A stretch of 39,046 nucleotides of DNA from an uncultured bacterium (GTDB lineage Bacteria; Verrucomicrobiota; Kiritimatiellia; RFP12; UBA1067). The translations under genes were made by a program, and so were the position numbers. Positions 3,565-20,983 of the stretch are shown here, piece by piece (position 1 is the first letter of the stretch; each line of letters begins with the position of its first letter). Where the stretch lies: the NCBI GenBank assembly GCA_902761275.1, contig CACWJS010000023.1, positions 1-39,046 of the forward strand. The letters are read 5' to 3'. The notes beneath the pieces were generated by a model, which saw only the letters and a program-made list of their open reading frames with translations, was not told the DNA's origin and did no database searches.

Positions 3565-6177
3565 TTACCTCACGAAGACCGAGAAGCCAGGACCGCCGAT
3601 CGTGAGACTGCCCGCACCAGTCAATATCGAGAGATTGGCCGCAGTAAACTCACCCTTCTTCTTCTCGCCATTGACGAAGAGCGACGAAACTTTCAGATTG
3701 TACCCGTTAAGGTCTATCTTGACATCCGTTGCGTCGGCAACCGTCAAGACCCCGATCTTCGTATCCTTCGTGAGTTTAACGCGAGCCCCCGGCTGAACTG
3801 TCCAATCCGCCTTGGGGACGCCAGTCCACACTGGCTCCCAATAGGTAATGGTGAGGTTATACGGCGTCGTTTCATTGCCGGTGGCTCCGTTTTCAACAAG
3901 CTTGAAATTCGACTCATATGTCGCCTGGTTGACCTTTGCGCCGTTCAGGTGGATACGCTCGGCATCGAAGAGCAGACTATACACATTGTTCGTCCATTCC
4001 TCTGTAGCGTTGAAGGTATACGAACATGCCGGATAGACGACGCCGTTCCCGCTCAGCGAAACGAAGTTCATGTAGGTGGCACCGCCCCATGTTCCGCAGA
4101 CCGCGCCGTCATCGCCGAGCTTGTTGTTGGAGATCTGGGACGAATAGACCTGCATCGTGCCGTTTCCGACAAGCGTTCCCGTCGACGTGATCGCGGCGTT
4201 GGAAACAACTGTGTTCGCGACTGCAATGTTGTTTATCGCATTGTTGTAGGCATCAAGGATGAGCACGGACGCGGTGGTGTTCAGGGTCGCGGGCTCATTC
4301 CCCTGCCATGCGCCGTTCATGTACACGTAGTCGAAATCGCTCGCGAAGAACAGGCCGGACTTGAACGCCTTCACCTCGTTGTCCTGGATGATCGCGAAAG
4401 CAAAGTTGTAGACATTGCCGGAGACGAGCGAGGTGACTGCCTTCGTCGCAACGCCTTCATTGACGACTACGGTTTCGCCCTTGGCGATTATGTTGGCTTC
4501 TGTAATCTCCGCCGTGTCGCACGCGACGATGACGCTTGCGCCGGATGCGATCGAGAAGATCGACGCGGTAAGAGTCGCGGAAGTCGCAGTCACATCGGAG
4601 AAAGCGACGGACGATATCTTGTTTTCATCGACGACGGGATCGTAGGTTATCTTAACCGTCTTGCCGGAGACCTCGACGGAGAAGAACGCTTCCCAGTCGG
4701 AATCCGCAATCGCCGCGCCGTCAAGCTTCAGATAGCCGGGCGTGACAAGGACAGACTTTGCCGAATCGGCATCGGAGATGTTGATGGCGTTGTCGGTAAA
4801 GGTGAAGGACGAAGCCTTGCCGGACAGGAAGTTCACAAATGTCTTTGTCGAAGAACCAGTGTATGTGCCGGGAGGATAGACGCCGAGCCACTGGTCGGCG
4901 CGCCTCGTCGTCATGTCGGAACCGTAAAGGGAGAAAACGAAGGGGGAGTTGACGACAATCGTGGCGATAGAGATGACGGTGTTGGAGAATACCACGTCGG
5001 ACGAAACATTGCAGTCGCCGGAAAGCGCGAGCGTCGCACCGTCGAAGTAGTCCTTTGCCGTGATAGAGAGCGCGCCGGAATAGTTGGCGTTCCTACCGAA
5101 CCAGCGGATGTCCGTCCCGGCCGTGGGAGCTTCCGTCGCGGGCGCCGACTTGTCCTTGGCCCAGCTCGCCGCGTTGCCGAGGTTGTTGTCCTCGCCAATG
5201 TATTCGTAGACGTCCGTCAGCTCGCCGTAGTCGCCATAAGGTGCCATGATGCGCCTCGTCACAGCAGCAGTCGCCGTGTATTCGCCGTTGTAGAAAAGGA
5301 ACGCCCTGATGAAATTGGATCCGACCTCGAGCGTGAGTGTATCGTCCACCGTGCCAGTAGAGGAAACGACTTCACCGTCCGTCACCGTAGGCCAGCTAGC
5401 GAAGGTCTCGCCATAGTCGCGTGTTCCACGGACGAAATAGACCGTCGCGTCGCTGCCGGAATACTTAGTTGCCGTCACGGAAACCGCCACCTGTCCGTCC
5501 TGAACCTCCCCGACGTCGAGATCGCCAAGCTCCCAGCCGTCTACAGACTTCATAGAAAGCGTCGTAGTGCCGTTGCCGTTGTCGCCGTACGTGAAGTGCT
5601 TGTTAAACGTCGCCTCGTCTATCACAGCATCATTATAGCGAATGTACGGAGTTGTTGCTGAATTTGAAAAGAAGAACCAGGGATTTGCCGCGATACTGGT
5701 CTGGTACGTGAAGGTCGCGGCGCGGTTTTTGCCATCAACGAAGTTGAGATAGCTGCCAGTATTCTGCCAGAAGCCGTTGTTACCAGATCCAGTATCAATA
5801 ATCGCCGCATCGGAAATCGTCAGCGATGACCCGGCGAATTGCGAAGCGACGAGCGTACCGCTCACCGTACCGCCGTAGATGACCGGATGTTCGACGTTGT
5901 TGTTGCCGAACTGGATTTCGCCGCCGATAGACCATGAAGCACCGTTTGAAAGCGTCAGAGACAAGGGGATGCGGTAGTTGCCGTTCACCGTCACGCTCGC
6001 CCCGTCAATGACAACAGAATCAGTTTCAGACGGTCCAATCGTAGCAGGGGAATCGTCGACGTTCCAGTTTCCTGCTGTGGCGTAATCGGAGGTACCTGCA
6101 CCACCTGTCCATGTATAAGTGTCGGCGATTAGTTGTCCCGCGAGTGCGGCGATTGCGATTGTGACGAGTTTTTTCAT
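3565..6177 (-). CDS. Large secreted beta-rich surface protein with internal repeats
   Basis: 870 aa, function not recognised. A signal peptide (MKKLVTIAIAALAGQLIA) is followed by a Thr/Ser/Asn/Gly-rich beta-strand protein opening with TYTWTGGAGTSDYATAGNW, the style of parallel beta-helix or autotransporter-like surface proteins of this phylum. Three stretches resemble each other and may be repeats of an 80-100 residue module: a Y-x-NF-(V/L) strand, an aromatic segment, then a pattern such as DEATFNKHF or NQATYESNF followed by a T-rich strand. The protein ends in GGPGFSVFVR, which could be a C-terminal sorting or anchoring motif; that is a guess. A Shine-Dalgarno-like GAAAGGG lies 7-13 nt before the ATG, and an extended -10 lies 24-29 nt upstream. 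The position before the glucanase suggests glucan binding or display. Confidence 0.8.
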   Translation of the reverse strand: MKKLVTIAIAALAGQLIADTYTWTGGAGTSDYATAGNWNVDDSPATIGPSETDSVVIDGASVTVNGNYRIPLSLTLSNGASWSIGGEIQFGNNNVEHPVIYGGTVSGTLVASQFAGSSLTISDAAIIDTGSGNNGFWQNTGSYLNFVDGKNRAATFTYQTSIAANPWFFFSNSATTPYIRYNDAVIDEATFNKHFTYGDNGNGTTTLSMKSVDGWELGDLDVGEVQDGQVAVSVTATKYSGSDATVYFVRGTRDYGETFASWPTVTDGEVVSSTGTVDDTLTLEVGSNFIRAFLFYNGEYTATAAVTRRIMAPYGDYGELTDVYEYIGEDNNLGNAASWAKDKSAPATEAPTAGTDIRWFGRNANYSGALSITAKDYFDGATLALSGDCNVSSDVVFSNTVISIATIVVNSPFVFSLYGSDMTTRRADQWLGVYPPGTYTGSSTKTFVNFLSGKASSFTFTDNAINISDADSAKSVLVTPGYLKLDGAAIADSDWEAFFSVEVSGKTVKITYDPVVDENKISSVAFSDVTATSATLTASIFSIASGASVIVACDTAEITEANIIAKGETVVVNEGVATKAVTSLVSGNVYNFAFAIIQDNEVKAFKSGLFFASDFDYVYMNGAWQGNEPATLNTTASVLILDAYNNAINNIAVANTVVSNAAITSTGTLVGNGTMQVYSSQISNNKLGDDGAVCGTWGGATYMNFVSLSGNGVVYPACSYTFNATEEWTNNVYSLLFDAERIHLNGAKVNQATYESNFKLVENGATGNETTPYNLTITYWEPVWTGVPKADWTVQPGARVKLTKDTKIGVLTVADATDVKIDLNGYNLKVSSLFVNGEKKKGEFTAANLSILTGAGSLTIGGPGFSVFVR

Positions 6178-6206: not shown

Positions 6207-6273
6207 GCATAACCGACGGTTTTGCAGATATCTATTCAAGCACAAAAAATGTGCCCTTTTGCGTTACCTGGAT

Positions 6274-6420
6274 GTGCTTCGGCCTGAATGGCCGCGGGAC
6301 AAGACGCCAGCATTAAGGGCCTCGCACCAAGACGACAACTTAAGGGCCTCGCACCAAGACGACAGCGGCAAGGGCCTCGCGGCAAGACGACAGCATTAAG
6401 GGCCTCGCACCAAGAATTCT
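6274..6420. repeat. REP array, five direct copies, downstream of the transposase
   Basis: A full REP unit beginning GTGCTTCGGCCTGAA (6274) is followed by head-to-tail 27-28 bp copies starting at about 6287, 6315, 6342, 6370 and 6398. Each has the core AAGGGCCTCGCACCAAGAC with small changes. The full unit can fold with a GTGC/GCAC lower stem and a GGCC/GGCC upper stem, an imperfect hairpin like known REPs. The array stops 5 nt before the transposase stop codon. Confidence 0.75.
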
Positions 6421-6425
6421 ATCTT

Positions 6426-7424
6426 TCAATCCGGAACACAACGACTAAATCGAAAGTCTGTAGCCGACGTCGCATAGAGCGACAGCCCACCCGTCGTGGA
6501 AGTCGCAAAGTCTGCGAGCGCGTCGTTGATGCCATGCCAGGCATCATAGCGCGATGAGCCTGGTGCGGCAACGCGGGAGAGAAGCAACAACCGCCCTTCG
6601 GTAAACTGCCGAGGCTCGTCGCCCTTGGGCCGGTAGACGAGCGCGAGCGGGTCGGGCACGGCCCTGATCATTGGCGCACCGCGAGCGATGAGCGCCCGCG
6701 CCACTTCGCGCTCACATGGCGAAATAAAAGTTCCGGCAAGAACAAAACCCTTGTCGACGGCTGCCATCAGACGCTCCAACACAGTCGAATAGTCTTTCAC
6801 TGGGATTCGCCGAGAGAGCCGAATCGCGCAGATTTTTCGTTCAGGAGCCAAGAGCTCAATTGCACCCGCCGCGCTCCACCATTCGTCGCCTGGGATGCGG
6901 TGAGATGAAATAGGCTCAACCACCTTAAGCGGCGGCGGATGGCCATGCATGAGATGCCATTTAAGAGGGTTGTTCTCAATATATTTGTCGGCAAGCTCGA
7001 TTATCTCACGACTGAGGCAGAGGCGGTCATGGTAGCCGCGCTCCCACTCGAATTCAACGCCGATTTTCGCGCAACTGAATTTTGTCCAGCGCTTGAAGTT
7101 GTTGATAAACTGCGCAAGCCTGGCGAGCGGACGATCCATGCCCGGCTTGAGATAGAGCCTTAGATGCACATGGTCGGGCATGATCACCGATTTCTCCACA
7201 ATGATGTCGTCTCGTCGGCGCTCTTCGATGGAGAGTGTCGACAGTGCCGCAATGCCGGCAGGAGAATAGAGCAGTCTACCATTGTCGTCGACAGAACCAA
7301 ACACCTTGGCGCGCCTCGCGACCGCAAATGTGATGAAGATTGCCGCACCACGCGAGTAGTCATAGCCCTTGAAGCGGCGATAATGACCGGCCCCGGCACA
7401 GCGAGATATTGTCTTTAAAGCCAT
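6426..7424 (-). CDS. REP-associated tyrosine transposase (RAYT) with a DprA/Rossmann-like C-terminal domain
   Basis: 332 aa. Residues 25-155 are a Y1/HUH single-stranded DNA transposase of the RAYT type: the metal-binding HVH is at 85-87 in IMPDHVHL, the probable nucleophile Tyr131 lies in WERGYHDRL, and YIENNPLKW (148-156) is the usual RAYT signature. Such enzymes cut and join single-stranded REP hairpins. Residues 180-310 are not part of a normal RAYT. The alternating beta/alpha pattern, GTFISPCEREVARALI, and EGRLLLLS followed by a helix resemble the Rossmann fold of DprA/Smf-like proteins; that similarity is judged by eye. REP arrays flank the gene on both sides, so it is probably active or recently was. 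The -10 is 6 nt from the ATG, implying a leaderless mRNA. Confidence 0.85.
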   Translation of the reverse strand: MALKTISRCAGAGHYRRFKGYDYSRGAAIFITFAVARRAKVFGSVDDNGRLLYSPAGIAALSTLSIEERRRDDIIVEKSVIMPDHVHLRLYLKPGMDRPLARLAQFINNFKRWTKFSCAKIGVEFEWERGYHDRLCLSREIIELADKYIENNPLKWHLMHGHPPPLKVVEPISSHRIPGDEWWSAAGAIELLAPERKICAIRLSRRIPVKDYSTVLERLMAAVDKGFVLAGTFISPCEREVARALIARGAPMIRAVPDPLALVYRPKGDEPRQFTEGRLLLLSRVAAPGSSRYDAWHGINDALADFATSTTGGLSLYATSATDFRFSRCVPD

Positions 7425-7436: not shown

Positions 7437-7455
7437 TCACAAACCAGGGGCCCTT

Positions 7456-7676
7456 GGTGTGCTTCGGCCTGAAGGGCCTCGCACCAAGACGATAGCGTTA
7501 AGGGCCTCGCGACACGACAACAGCAGGGGTAGAGACAAGGCAACAGGCCAAATAGCCGCGCGACAGAGCGATGTGGCTGGCTTTAGCCTTTTAAGTCACT
7601 CTGTCGCGAGGCTGTTGCGACCGCCGTCTTGGTGCGAGGCCCTTTAGGCCGAAGCACACAAAGGCCGAAGCACACC
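7456..7676. repeat. REP cluster with inverted copies, upstream of the transposase
   Basis: A full REP unit (7459-7490) and a partial direct copy (7500-7527) face an inverted full unit at 7626-7657; the two full units differ at about one position. Between them CGCGACAGAG (7559-7568) pairs exactly with CTCTGTCGCG (7599-7608), so the whole block can fold as one long cruciform. A last half-unit (GGCCGAAGCACACC) runs up to the stop codon of the glycosidase at 7677. With the array at 6274-6420 this makes a complete RAYT-REP unit. Confidence 0.75.
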
Positions 7677-18616: not shown

Positions 18617-20560
18617 TCAACGCTCCCGCCGACCATTAAACACTTCCATCTCGCTGTGGCCGTCAGTCAACTTCCTTCCAACCACCAAATGCCAAGGGAT
18701 TGTGTCAGCCCCACCTTTGCAAAGACCCACGATGCCAGATGCGCGAGGCATTGCAAGTCCCGCAACAACGGCCCTCTTGCCGACAAGTTCTCCGTTTCTC
18801 GTCCAACCGCCAAACCGCTCCAAGCGGCAATCCGCCTTCATGCGCCTGAACCGCGCACAGGCGACAGCACCAGCAGGGCCAACGCAGTCATCGACGCTCC
18901 GCCCCGTTGCCTCGCACAGCCTTGCAGTTTCCCCTTCGGCAAGCACGATGTGCAGCTCTTCTTCCGTCGCCAATCGCACCTCATAACCGTCTGGCAGCGA
19001 AGCGCGGACACGTTCCGTCATCGCCCGGCAAAATGCCGCCGCCGATTCCCTATCTGCCACTACACAAAGCGGACATTCATCCGAAAGCGTCGACTCTAAA
19101 GAATCCAGCCCCTCATAGCCGCCTTTCAACGCCCGCCACGCCGCGACCGTAACCGGCAAGCGGCTCATCCAGAACGCAGAACCCGCCATTTTGAACGGCA
19201 GAAGCCGCGCCACACTTCCGTCTCCAAACTCAAACTGCACTTCCTGCGGTTCGCCCGATCCATCGCGCCATTTGTATTCCTTTGCAGGGCTTTCCAGCCG
19301 CTTCGGAGTCTCAATGGTTTTTGCGGTCTCCTTGTTTTCGTTGTCCGACTTGTCCTTGGGCTGTTCCGTCGTTCCGGCATCCTGTGTCGGCTTGTCGTGA
19401 TCTTCCAACTGCTGTTCGATACGCTTTTCCTCGACATGGTGCGACACCATCTCCTTCGCGCGTTTCGCCTCGTCCTCTGCCGCCTTTAGCTTGGCAAGCA
19501 TCTCCTCTTCTGCTCTCCGGGTCTCCTGCCGCAAACGTTCGGTCTCCTGATCCCGACGTACCAATTCTGCCTCATGCGTCCGCCACGCCACCACCCCGGC
19601 GCACAGTCCGCCAATGGCAACAAGTGCCGTGCATACGCACGCAGCGACGAACCATGCCCATCTGCGCCTCCGCGTCCGAGACTTCACGGCACCCTGCGTT
19701 CGCTTTGCGCTTGGCAGAAGCCCAATGACAGCCTGCGCCAATATCTGCGGACGCTCCGCCGGTTCAACCGCAAGCATCGCAGGCAGTATCTCCGTCCAAC
19801 GGCACTTCCACCTGCCACCTGCCAGCAACGCCCGCACATCCACGCCAGGCTCGTACCAGACCCCCGTCAGCATCTTGAACATCGCAACACCCAGCGCATA
19901 CGTGTCAGCCGCAGCCGTCGGCTCCTCGCCATCCTCGACCTCCGGCGCCGTGTAATGGTTCGTGCCAAGAACCATCCGGCTGCCGGGCGTGTCGAATGCA
20001 CTCGTTGGACATGCGCCCGCCGACGCCTTCAACAACCCATCGCCGAAGATGTGCGCAATCCCGAAATCGGAGAGCGTGACATGCTTGTCGGCGTTCAGCA
20101 GTATGTTGTTCAGCTTCACGTCACGGTGAACCACGCCCTGCGAATGGATGTAGTCGAGCGCGTTGCACAGGTCGCGGAACCAGATGAACATGTGATCCTC
20201 GCTTACGCTCGTCCTGTCCACGTCATCAAGGGTATACGGGTTGCCATCCTTGTAGAGAACGAGATCCATAGCGTAGTAGACAACACCCGTTGCACCGTCT
20301 ATCGAAAGGTCGAACACGCGCACGAGGTTCGGATGCTTAAGCCGCGCCAAAACCTGACCTTCTTCCATGAACTTCGCACGGAGCATCGGCCACGACTTCC
20401 CGCCCCTGTAGGCGAAAGCCTTCAGCGCGTAGTGCACGCCAAGGCTCTCGTGCTCCACCTCGTAAACCTCGCCCATGCCGCCGCACCCGATGCAGCGCAC
20501 GATGCGGTATGGTCCAAGTGCCTGACCCGCCTTGTATAACGGCTCTGTCTTTTCGGTCAT
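18617..20560 (-). CDS. Hanks-type Ser/Thr protein kinase, transmembrane, with C-terminal SUMF1/FGE-like domain
   Basis: 647 aa. The kinase domain (17-285) has the Gly loop IGCGGMGEVY, Lys47, catalytic HRDVKLNN (Asp147), DFG 165-167 and APE 205-207, so it should be active. A basic patch and one transmembrane helix (301-326) are followed by a coiled coil (328-388) and a Pro/Lys/Glu linker. The last 170 residues resemble a shrunken formylglycine-enzyme-like (SUMF1) fold: FWMSRLPVTVAAWRAL, a CRAMTERVRASLPDGYEVRLATEEEL block, then little of the usual core. The start at MTEKTEPLYK (20560) has GGAG 7 nt upstream; the frame extends 113 codons further but reads through the divergent promoter. The nearby FGE protein is a candidate partner or substrate. 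Confidence 0.88.
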   Translation of the reverse strand: MTEKTEPLYKAGQALGPYRIVRCIGCGGMGEVYEVEHESLGVHYALKAFAYRGGKSWPMLRAKFMEEGQVLARLKHPNLVRVFDLSIDGATGVVYYAMDLVLYKDGNPYTLDDVDRTSVSEDHMFIWFRDLCNALDYIHSQGVVHRDVKLNNILLNADKHVTLSDFGIAHIFGDGLLKASAGACPTSAFDTPGSRMVLGTNHYTAPEVEDGEEPTAAADTYALGVAMFKMLTGVWYEPGVDVRALLAGGRWKCRWTEILPAMLAVEPAERPQILAQAVIGLLPSAKRTQGAVKSRTRRRRWAWFVAACVCTALVAIGGLCAGVVAWRTHEAELVRRDQETERLRQETRRAEEEMLAKLKAAEDEAKRAKEMVSHHVEEKRIEQQLEDHDKPTQDAGTTEQPKDKSDNENKETAKTIETPKRLESPAKEYKWRDGSGEPQEVQFEFGDGSVARLLPFKMAGSAFWMSRLPVTVAAWRALKGGYEGLDSLESTLSDECPLCVVADRESAAAFCRAMTERVRASLPDGYEVRLATEEELHIVLAEGETARLCEATGRSVDDCVGPAGAVACARFRRMKADCRLERFGGWTRNGELVGKRAVVAGLAMPRASGIVGLCKGGADTIPWHLVVGRKLTDGHSEMEVFNGRRER

Positions 20561-20572
20561 CTCAGTGCTCCA

Positions 20573-20601
20573 TTGACATTGTGTGCAGAATAGTGTACAA
20601 T
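20573..20601 (+). promoter_or_regulatory. Strong promoter of the toxin-antitoxin pair
   Basis: TTGACA (20573-20578), 17-bp spacer, TACAAT (20596-20601). It overlaps the 5' region of the divergent kinase gene, so antitoxin binding here could affect both. The GTGTNCANNNTANTGTACA-like half-symmetry around 20579-20600 may be the operator. Confidence 0.75.
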
Positions 20602-20632
20602 GCTCGCATATTCCATTTGAGGACAAAAGGCC

Positions 20633-20983
20633 ATGACACGAACAGCAACACACCCGATACGACGCCCGCGCCTTGACGAGGATGTCGTGCCTTTTACCGA
20701 ATGTCGGCGGACGCTCAGCGACTGCCTTGAGCGCACGGCTCGCACACATCGTCCCATCGTCATCACGCATAACGGACGCGCCGCAAGCGTCATGATCGGC
20801 ATTAGCGACTTTGAGAACACATGGGACGAGATCGAAATGTGGCGCGAAAAGGCGGAGCTGGCGAAAGCCATTGCCATATCCCGCAAACAATTTGAACAAG
20901 GCGAATGTCTCTCCGATGAAGAATCCTTCAACGAAATCGAGAAAATGCTCGATGAAATGGAATCGAAAAGGAATTCCCGGTGA
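20633..20983 (+). CDS. Phd/YefM-type antitoxin
   Basis: 116 aa. The N-terminal half has the Phd/YefM pattern: DEDVVPFTECRRTLSDCLER, then RPIVITHNGRAASVMIGISDFE, the DNA-binding and dimerisation fold. The C-terminal half is acidic and helical (KQFEQGECLSDEESFNEIEK), the part that usually wraps and neutralises the toxin. GAGGACAAAAGG precedes the ATG. Its stop overlaps the toxin start (GTGA), normal for these modules, and it should repress the promoter at 20573-20601. Confidence 0.88.
   Translation: MTRTATHPIRRPRLDEDVVPFTECRRTLSDCLERTARTHRPIVITHNGRAASVMIGISDFENTWDEIEMWREKAELAKAIAISRKQFEQGECLSDEESFNEIEKMLDEMESKRNSR

Follow-up and report, generated by a model that had tools for sequence, protein, structure and literature searches.

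A RAYT transposase fused to a DprA-like domain beside private REP-like hairpins in a rumen-type Kiritimatiellae bacterium

The gene described here, from a rumen-type Kiritimatiellae bacterium, raises the question of what a tail of about 150 residues resembling the DNA-processing protein DprA might contribute to a transposase of the RAYT type. The window (the whole stretch of DNA analysed, 39,046 nucleotides) otherwise holds ordinary metabolic and envelope genes as neighbours of the fusion. Among its other proteins are an 870-aa neighbour without a Pfam match (3565-6177) and a 760-aa protein (18617-20899) in which a Ser/Thr protein kinase domain was recognised (PF00069, E 3.2e-35).

Table 1. 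Features of the fusion gene and its surroundings (window coordinates)
Feature	Position	Strand	Evidence or remark
RAYT-DprA fusion gene, 332 aa	6426..7424	-	ATG start, no internal stop
Predicted HUH/Y1 RAYT core, residues ~19-160	6945..7370	-	NF047646 and 4er8 structural match
HUH motif H85-V86-H87	7164..7172	-	near-invariance in 48 relatives
Predicted catalytic Tyr148 (YIENNP)	6981..6983	-	near-invariance in 48 relatives; Y motif of PMC6006769
Predicted DprA-like SLOG/Rossmann domain, residues ~171-332	6429..6914	-	structure, profile, bridging protein
Arg205, putative counterpart of the ssDNA-binding Arg of DprA (SpDprA R115, HpDprA R52)	6810..6812	-	alignments; Arg in 30/35 tails
Invariant Glu238 (FISPxE), where DprA has GID	6711..6713	-	35/35 tails
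Asn300, putative counterpart of the DprA RN-motif Asn	6525..6527	-	34/35 tails
Upstream REP-like hairpin, minus-strand sequence GTCTTGGTGCGAGGCCCTTCAGGCCGAAGCAC; left arm of inverted pair	7452..7514	.	
Inverted REP copy, ends in AGGCCGAAGCACAC repeats	7602..7676	.	83% complementary to 7452-7514
Downstream REP-like element with an array of REP half-units (27-28 bp each)	6273..6420	.	

The N-terminal part of the protein was assigned to the RAYT family by both profile and structure. It matched the NCBIfam model NF047646 (REP_Tyr_transpos) over residues 25-158 with an E value of 5.2e-9 and 36.1 bits, which is under the 80-bit equivalog cut-off and marks the core as a divergent clade; Pfam Y1_Tnp, with the N-terminal half alone matched, gave E 0.0019, also under its cut-off. 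The best structural match of the modelled core was the E. coli TnpAREP-REP complex 4er8 (Z 14.0, rmsd 2.5, 130 residues; Foldseek, VIA-align). These results bear out the initial annotation, which had recognised a RAYT core from HVH 85-87 and YIENNPLKW, both of them present. Its choice of Tyr131 as the catalytic tyrosine was mistaken: this residue belongs to a YHD motif and is replaced in the copies from Victivallales. Since Tyr148 of YIENNP is near-invariant over 48 relatives and corresponds to what Quentin et al. 2018 (PMC6006769) define as the Y motif, it is the catalytic residue. D84-H85-V86-H87, Y148, N152 and P153 are each at least 90% conserved in the same 48 relatives, and the predicted catalytic residues of the core are thus intact.

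A full-length model built from an alignment of the window protein with those of database loci reached a mean pLDDT of 91.9, with both domains above 90 at most residues. In this whole-protein model the C-terminal half matched ShosA with Z 12.9, HpDprA with 10.9, SpDprA with 10.8 and RpDprA with 8.9 (Foldseek, VIA-align), and the tail modelled alone (pLDDT 91.3) matched the same four with 11.8, 10.4, 10.3 and 8.4. For the tail alone, the top seven PDB entries were all DprA or ShosA, followed by Moco carrier, TRPM and LOG proteins at Z 6.7 or below. A LOG-type or generic Rossmann identity was rejected, given that the LOG entries reached at most Z 6.5 against 8.4-11.8 for DprA and ShosA.

Profile comparisons led to the same family. 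The tail profile matched the PDB chains of HpDprA (E 0.001) and SpDprA (E 0.0018). Its hhalign score against DprA proteins of the same order was 34.8, and none of 60 column-shuffled controls exceeded 17.6; a wider alignment of tails was collinear with DprA across 121 columns (P 4.5e-4). A free-standing protein of 198 aa from locus L185 bridges the two groups: it matches the tail profile at 4.5e-20 and, with 34.8 bits, passes the PF02481 cut-off of 29.6. In direct searches the tail of the window protein had no Pfam match and one of 48 relatives had a match at E 0.094, and a PHROGs search with the tail returned nothing. Two other candidates were discarded, namely a TetR protein, the sole and chance result of a single-protein PDB search, and the stathmin-like 4f61, a spurious coiled-coil match at the top of the tail profile search of the PDB. 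Because the tail is kept in tens of diverged homologues with identical domain order, it is not a chance open frame. Its predicted membership of the DprA branch of the SLOG/Rossmann superfamily is therefore supported, and so is the earlier proposal of a DprA/Smf-like C-terminal half, which had pointed to GTFISPCEREVARALI and EGRLLLLS, both located in the tail. L185 and a second free-standing DprA-like protein, L184, carry GFxSPxE in place of SGxAxGID, and both resemble the branch from which the tail derives.

Conservation within the tail was counted in an alignment of 35 diverged tails, in which G187 and E238 never vary and N300 and P266 almost never do. In DprA, the arginine of G-x-R (SpDprA R115, HpDprA R52) takes part in ssDNA binding (PMC4066776); at the corresponding position 205 five of the 35 tails lack an arginine in the alignment as computed. 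A basic residue stands 7-8 positions ahead of N300 in 31 of 34 tails, where SpDprA has K202 and HpDprA K137, the correspondence being approximate. The SGxAxGID motif of DprA is absent, with FISPxE in its place, and GxR is replaced by SR, so that the glycines of both motifs are largely lost and the affinity of the tail for ssDNA may be altered or lost. The retention of the arginine together with the replacement of SGxAxGID nevertheless suggests that the tail belongs to a diverged DprA branch in which the ssDNA-binding site is partly preserved, and it may accordingly bind ssDNA.

The gene is surrounded by what appear to be its own REPs. Upstream, two segments of 63 nt (7452-7514 and 7602-7664) form an inverted pair with 83% complementarity. 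The REP core occurs six times in the window, against 0.05 expected, and with up to two mismatches allowed the whole 3.4 Mb assembly holds six sites, all around the fusion gene. Many dispersed copies, which are typical of RAYTs though not universal, are absent from the same 3.4 Mb. The minus-strand unit GTCTTGGTGCGAGGCCCTTCAGGCCGAAGCAC folds into a bulged hairpin (z -2.1; -2.5 for the opposite strand), and the downstream half-units alone fold no better than shuffles.

Hairpins at other fused loci are particular to the locus and differ from those of the window gene; they often have a loop resembling TTCA and, on the 5' side of the stem, a C[C/T]TG foot. Around 61 fused genes the density of perfect hairpins was 2.46/kb up to 300 bp away and 0.35/kb beyond 800 bp; the values at short RAYTs were 1.04/kb near and 0.42/kb far. 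Of the 88 near hairpins 27 have the C[C/T]TG foot, as do 3 of the 57 far ones (P 1.3e-4), a statistic that concerns partly related loci and a motif picked after viewing the data. Fused genes thus usually have REP-like hairpins beside them: one is present at 42 of the 61 loci, and about a third are without REPs by these criteria. In several copies of the fusion, repeats lie inside the reading frame. A paralogue in the same genome, L002 (L002:1270-2451, C31), carries four PPRQALSLEKQA-like REP-like units in its coding sequence, at the N-terminus; this repeat occurs five times in the genome, all at the L002 gene, and in-frame arrays of similar appearance were seen in L040, L041 and L048.

Comparison of closely related loci gave some indication of mobility. 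Loci L035 and L036 (96%) are collinear with the window. In L037 (93%) the flanking genes are unchanged, but the gene between them is turned round (L037:2752-4140), its breakpoints inside the REPs, as read from one metagenome-assembled contig, a setting in which inverted repeats can mislead the assembler. At L038/G008 (75%), gene and REP lie at a different locus, beside uxaC. An empty site was sought through this neighbour, and uxaC without a RAYT was found in other genomes, but the upstream sides were not comparable, so that the search yielded no clean empty site. Together, L037 and L038 point to a REP-gene unit that may occasionally flip and relocate. The inversion may have been made by the enzyme itself or by RecA acting between the inverted REPs. 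The RAYT of L038 is also adjoined by an autotransporter-like beta-strand-repeat protein.

The fusion is not confined to this genome. As the initial annotation had proposed to check, other genomes were searched, and the same architecture recurs in many of them, with well over a hundred related RAYT-DprA fusions in gut and rumen bacteria. Among 58 genomes (this one and others of its genus or order) 38 matched the whole protein, and 39 of 57 matched the tail profile, with up to 13 copies per genome and nearly all tail matches in ORFs of 300-560 aa; phylum-wide, 72 of 289 sampled genomes gave a match at 1e-8. Victivallales share the architecture, as do, beyond the phylum, members of Bacteroidales (Muribaculaceae, Paludibacteraceae, Bacteroidaceae, Rikenellaceae). 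In phages and plasmids the search found short RAYTs only, covering 41-45% of the query.

On a tree of RAYT cores the fused label required 3 changes, against 31 when labels were shuffled; the tree was built by a quick method and its deep nodes are weakly supported, and one of its "short" copies, L004, is in fact a frame-broken fused gene. Distances among cores and among tails were correlated (0.58), a value equalled in none of 2000 permutations. The few label changes and this correlation argue for an old fusion that has mainly been held together within its lineage, and core and tail appear to co-evolve. A few tails, those of L054, L097 and L186, fall elsewhere, and the domain may have been acquired a second time. 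The broken copy, which belongs to the genome of the window (L004/L005, C57:6164-6740), lies in two overlapping frames, adjoined by a small gene pair that looks, by eye, like a toxin-antitoxin system.

Set beside known systems, the fusion resembles several of them in part. With TnpAREP/RAYT of E. coli (4er8; NF047646) it shares the HUH core with a single tyrosine (Z 14.0) and REP-like hairpins beside the gene, but it adds the DprA-like domain, and its REPs are private and few, whereas TnpAREP/RAYT has more than 100 dispersed copies. With DprA/Smf (PF02481; HpDprA 4ljk, SpDprA 3uqz) the tail has in common the Rossmann/SLOG fold, a GN..LL motif, the ssDNA-binding arginine, the asparagine of the RN motif and the order of elements. 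It differs in the two motif replacements described above, in having neither a SAM nor a DML1 domain, in being fused to a nuclease, and in that most members fall under Pfam detection. ShosA (8zva/9vzo), a DprA-like antitoxin and the best single structural match of the tail, is a stand-alone partner of the adjacent toxin ShosT, unlike the tail fused to a RAYT.

Quentin et al. (PMC6006769) list 12 TnpAY1 subclasses with tail domains; none is reported as DprA-like, and the word "DprA" is absent from their text. The only one of comparable length is subclass 2.3 (about 325 aa), which likewise has a long subclass-specific C-terminal domain; it is characterised by NHYH and YVDLNP, insertions in the core, a proteobacterial distribution and a lack of REPs, in contrast to DHVH, YIENNP and the presence of REPs in the fusion. 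Subclass 2.4 shares the YIxNNP motif, REPs inserting into the gene itself and occurrence in Bacteroidetes, but has a median length of 194 aa and no conserved tail domain. The initial annotation knew of no described RAYT with this architecture, and the comparison agrees with it: the tail is normal for its own clade, but this clade lies outside the described subclasses. In the open-licence literature we found no paper naming both RAYT and DprA, and none on a DprA-HUH transposase or a Y1_Tnp and DNA_processg_A fusion, a prior mention elsewhere being possible. The RAYT-DprA clade is apparently widespread and undescribed.

The RAYT of E. coli is monomeric and the transposases of the IS200 type are dimers. 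RAYT cores process ssDNA at REP hairpins (PMC6006769), and the Rossmann domains of DprA mediate both ssDNA binding and dimerisation (PMC4489622). The simplest joint reading would be that a RAYT has taken its dimer and ssDNA-holding functions from a DprA-like domain. We favour, at a probability of about 0.5, a two-domain ssDNA processing enzyme in which an HUH/Y1 nuclease acts on private REPs together with a dimer-forming, ssDNA-holding module. The core would recognise and cut the REP hairpins flanking its own gene when they are single-stranded; the DprA-like domain, which may dimerise, would hold the cut strand or strands and pair two otherwise monomeric RAYT active sites; and the REP or REPIN ends, now and then with the gene itself, would be rejoined or inverted. 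A more far-reaching version, which we regard as tentative, is that such loci are self-contained mobile or phase-variable "REPtrons", where the built-in DprA-type domain would let the transposase cut, hold and rejoin private REPs, flipping or moving the gene, in effect an HUH recombinase carrying its own recombination mediator.

The tail might instead serve as a RecA mediator. DprA loads RecA (PMC4066776), and a bona fide DprA activity could load it on ssDNA nicked or freed by the core, directing repair or recombination at the REPs; the closest fold relatives of known function are indeed DprA proteins, the ssDNA-binding arginine is kept, and private inverted REPs with one in-place inversion would fit. 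This reading is rather unlikely, as a complete dprA is already encoded separately in the genome (G000:C16), the tail stops at about the Rossmann core, and the RecA-contacting acidic EDE patch of SpDprA is poorly conserved even within DprA (PMC4066776). About equally doubtful is a ShosA-like regulator or sensor, restraining the HUH nuclease until ssDNA or a SLOG-type nucleotide ligand is bound, perhaps in phage defence. It draws on ShosA, annotated as a DprA-like antitoxin in PDB 9vzo, being the best match to both models, and on the nucleotide binding of SLOG relatives (LOG, Moco carrier, TRPM). Yet the Z-scores of ShosA and DprA differ by little over 1, a PADLOC defence search with the fusion protein gave no match, and the association found is with REPs, among ordinary metabolic and envelope neighbours. 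The tail could also be a degenerate passenger, descended from a single capture of a DprA-like domain and retained as a structural appendage with no DNA-related role. The replacement of key DprA glycines would suit this reading, but it is improbable in view of the invariant and near-invariant positions over the 35 tails and the long co-evolution with the core, which indicate strong selection on the tail.

The fusion bears on the way in which REPs are moved or maintained by REP/RAYT systems. It names a likely partner activity for the nuclease, since the second domain comes from the ssDNA mediator that is known best in bacteria. Because its private REPs are very few, the fusion gene lets substrate and enzyme be tested together. 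The fusion also shows that the DprA-like branch is used beyond transformation and antiphage toxin-antitoxin systems.
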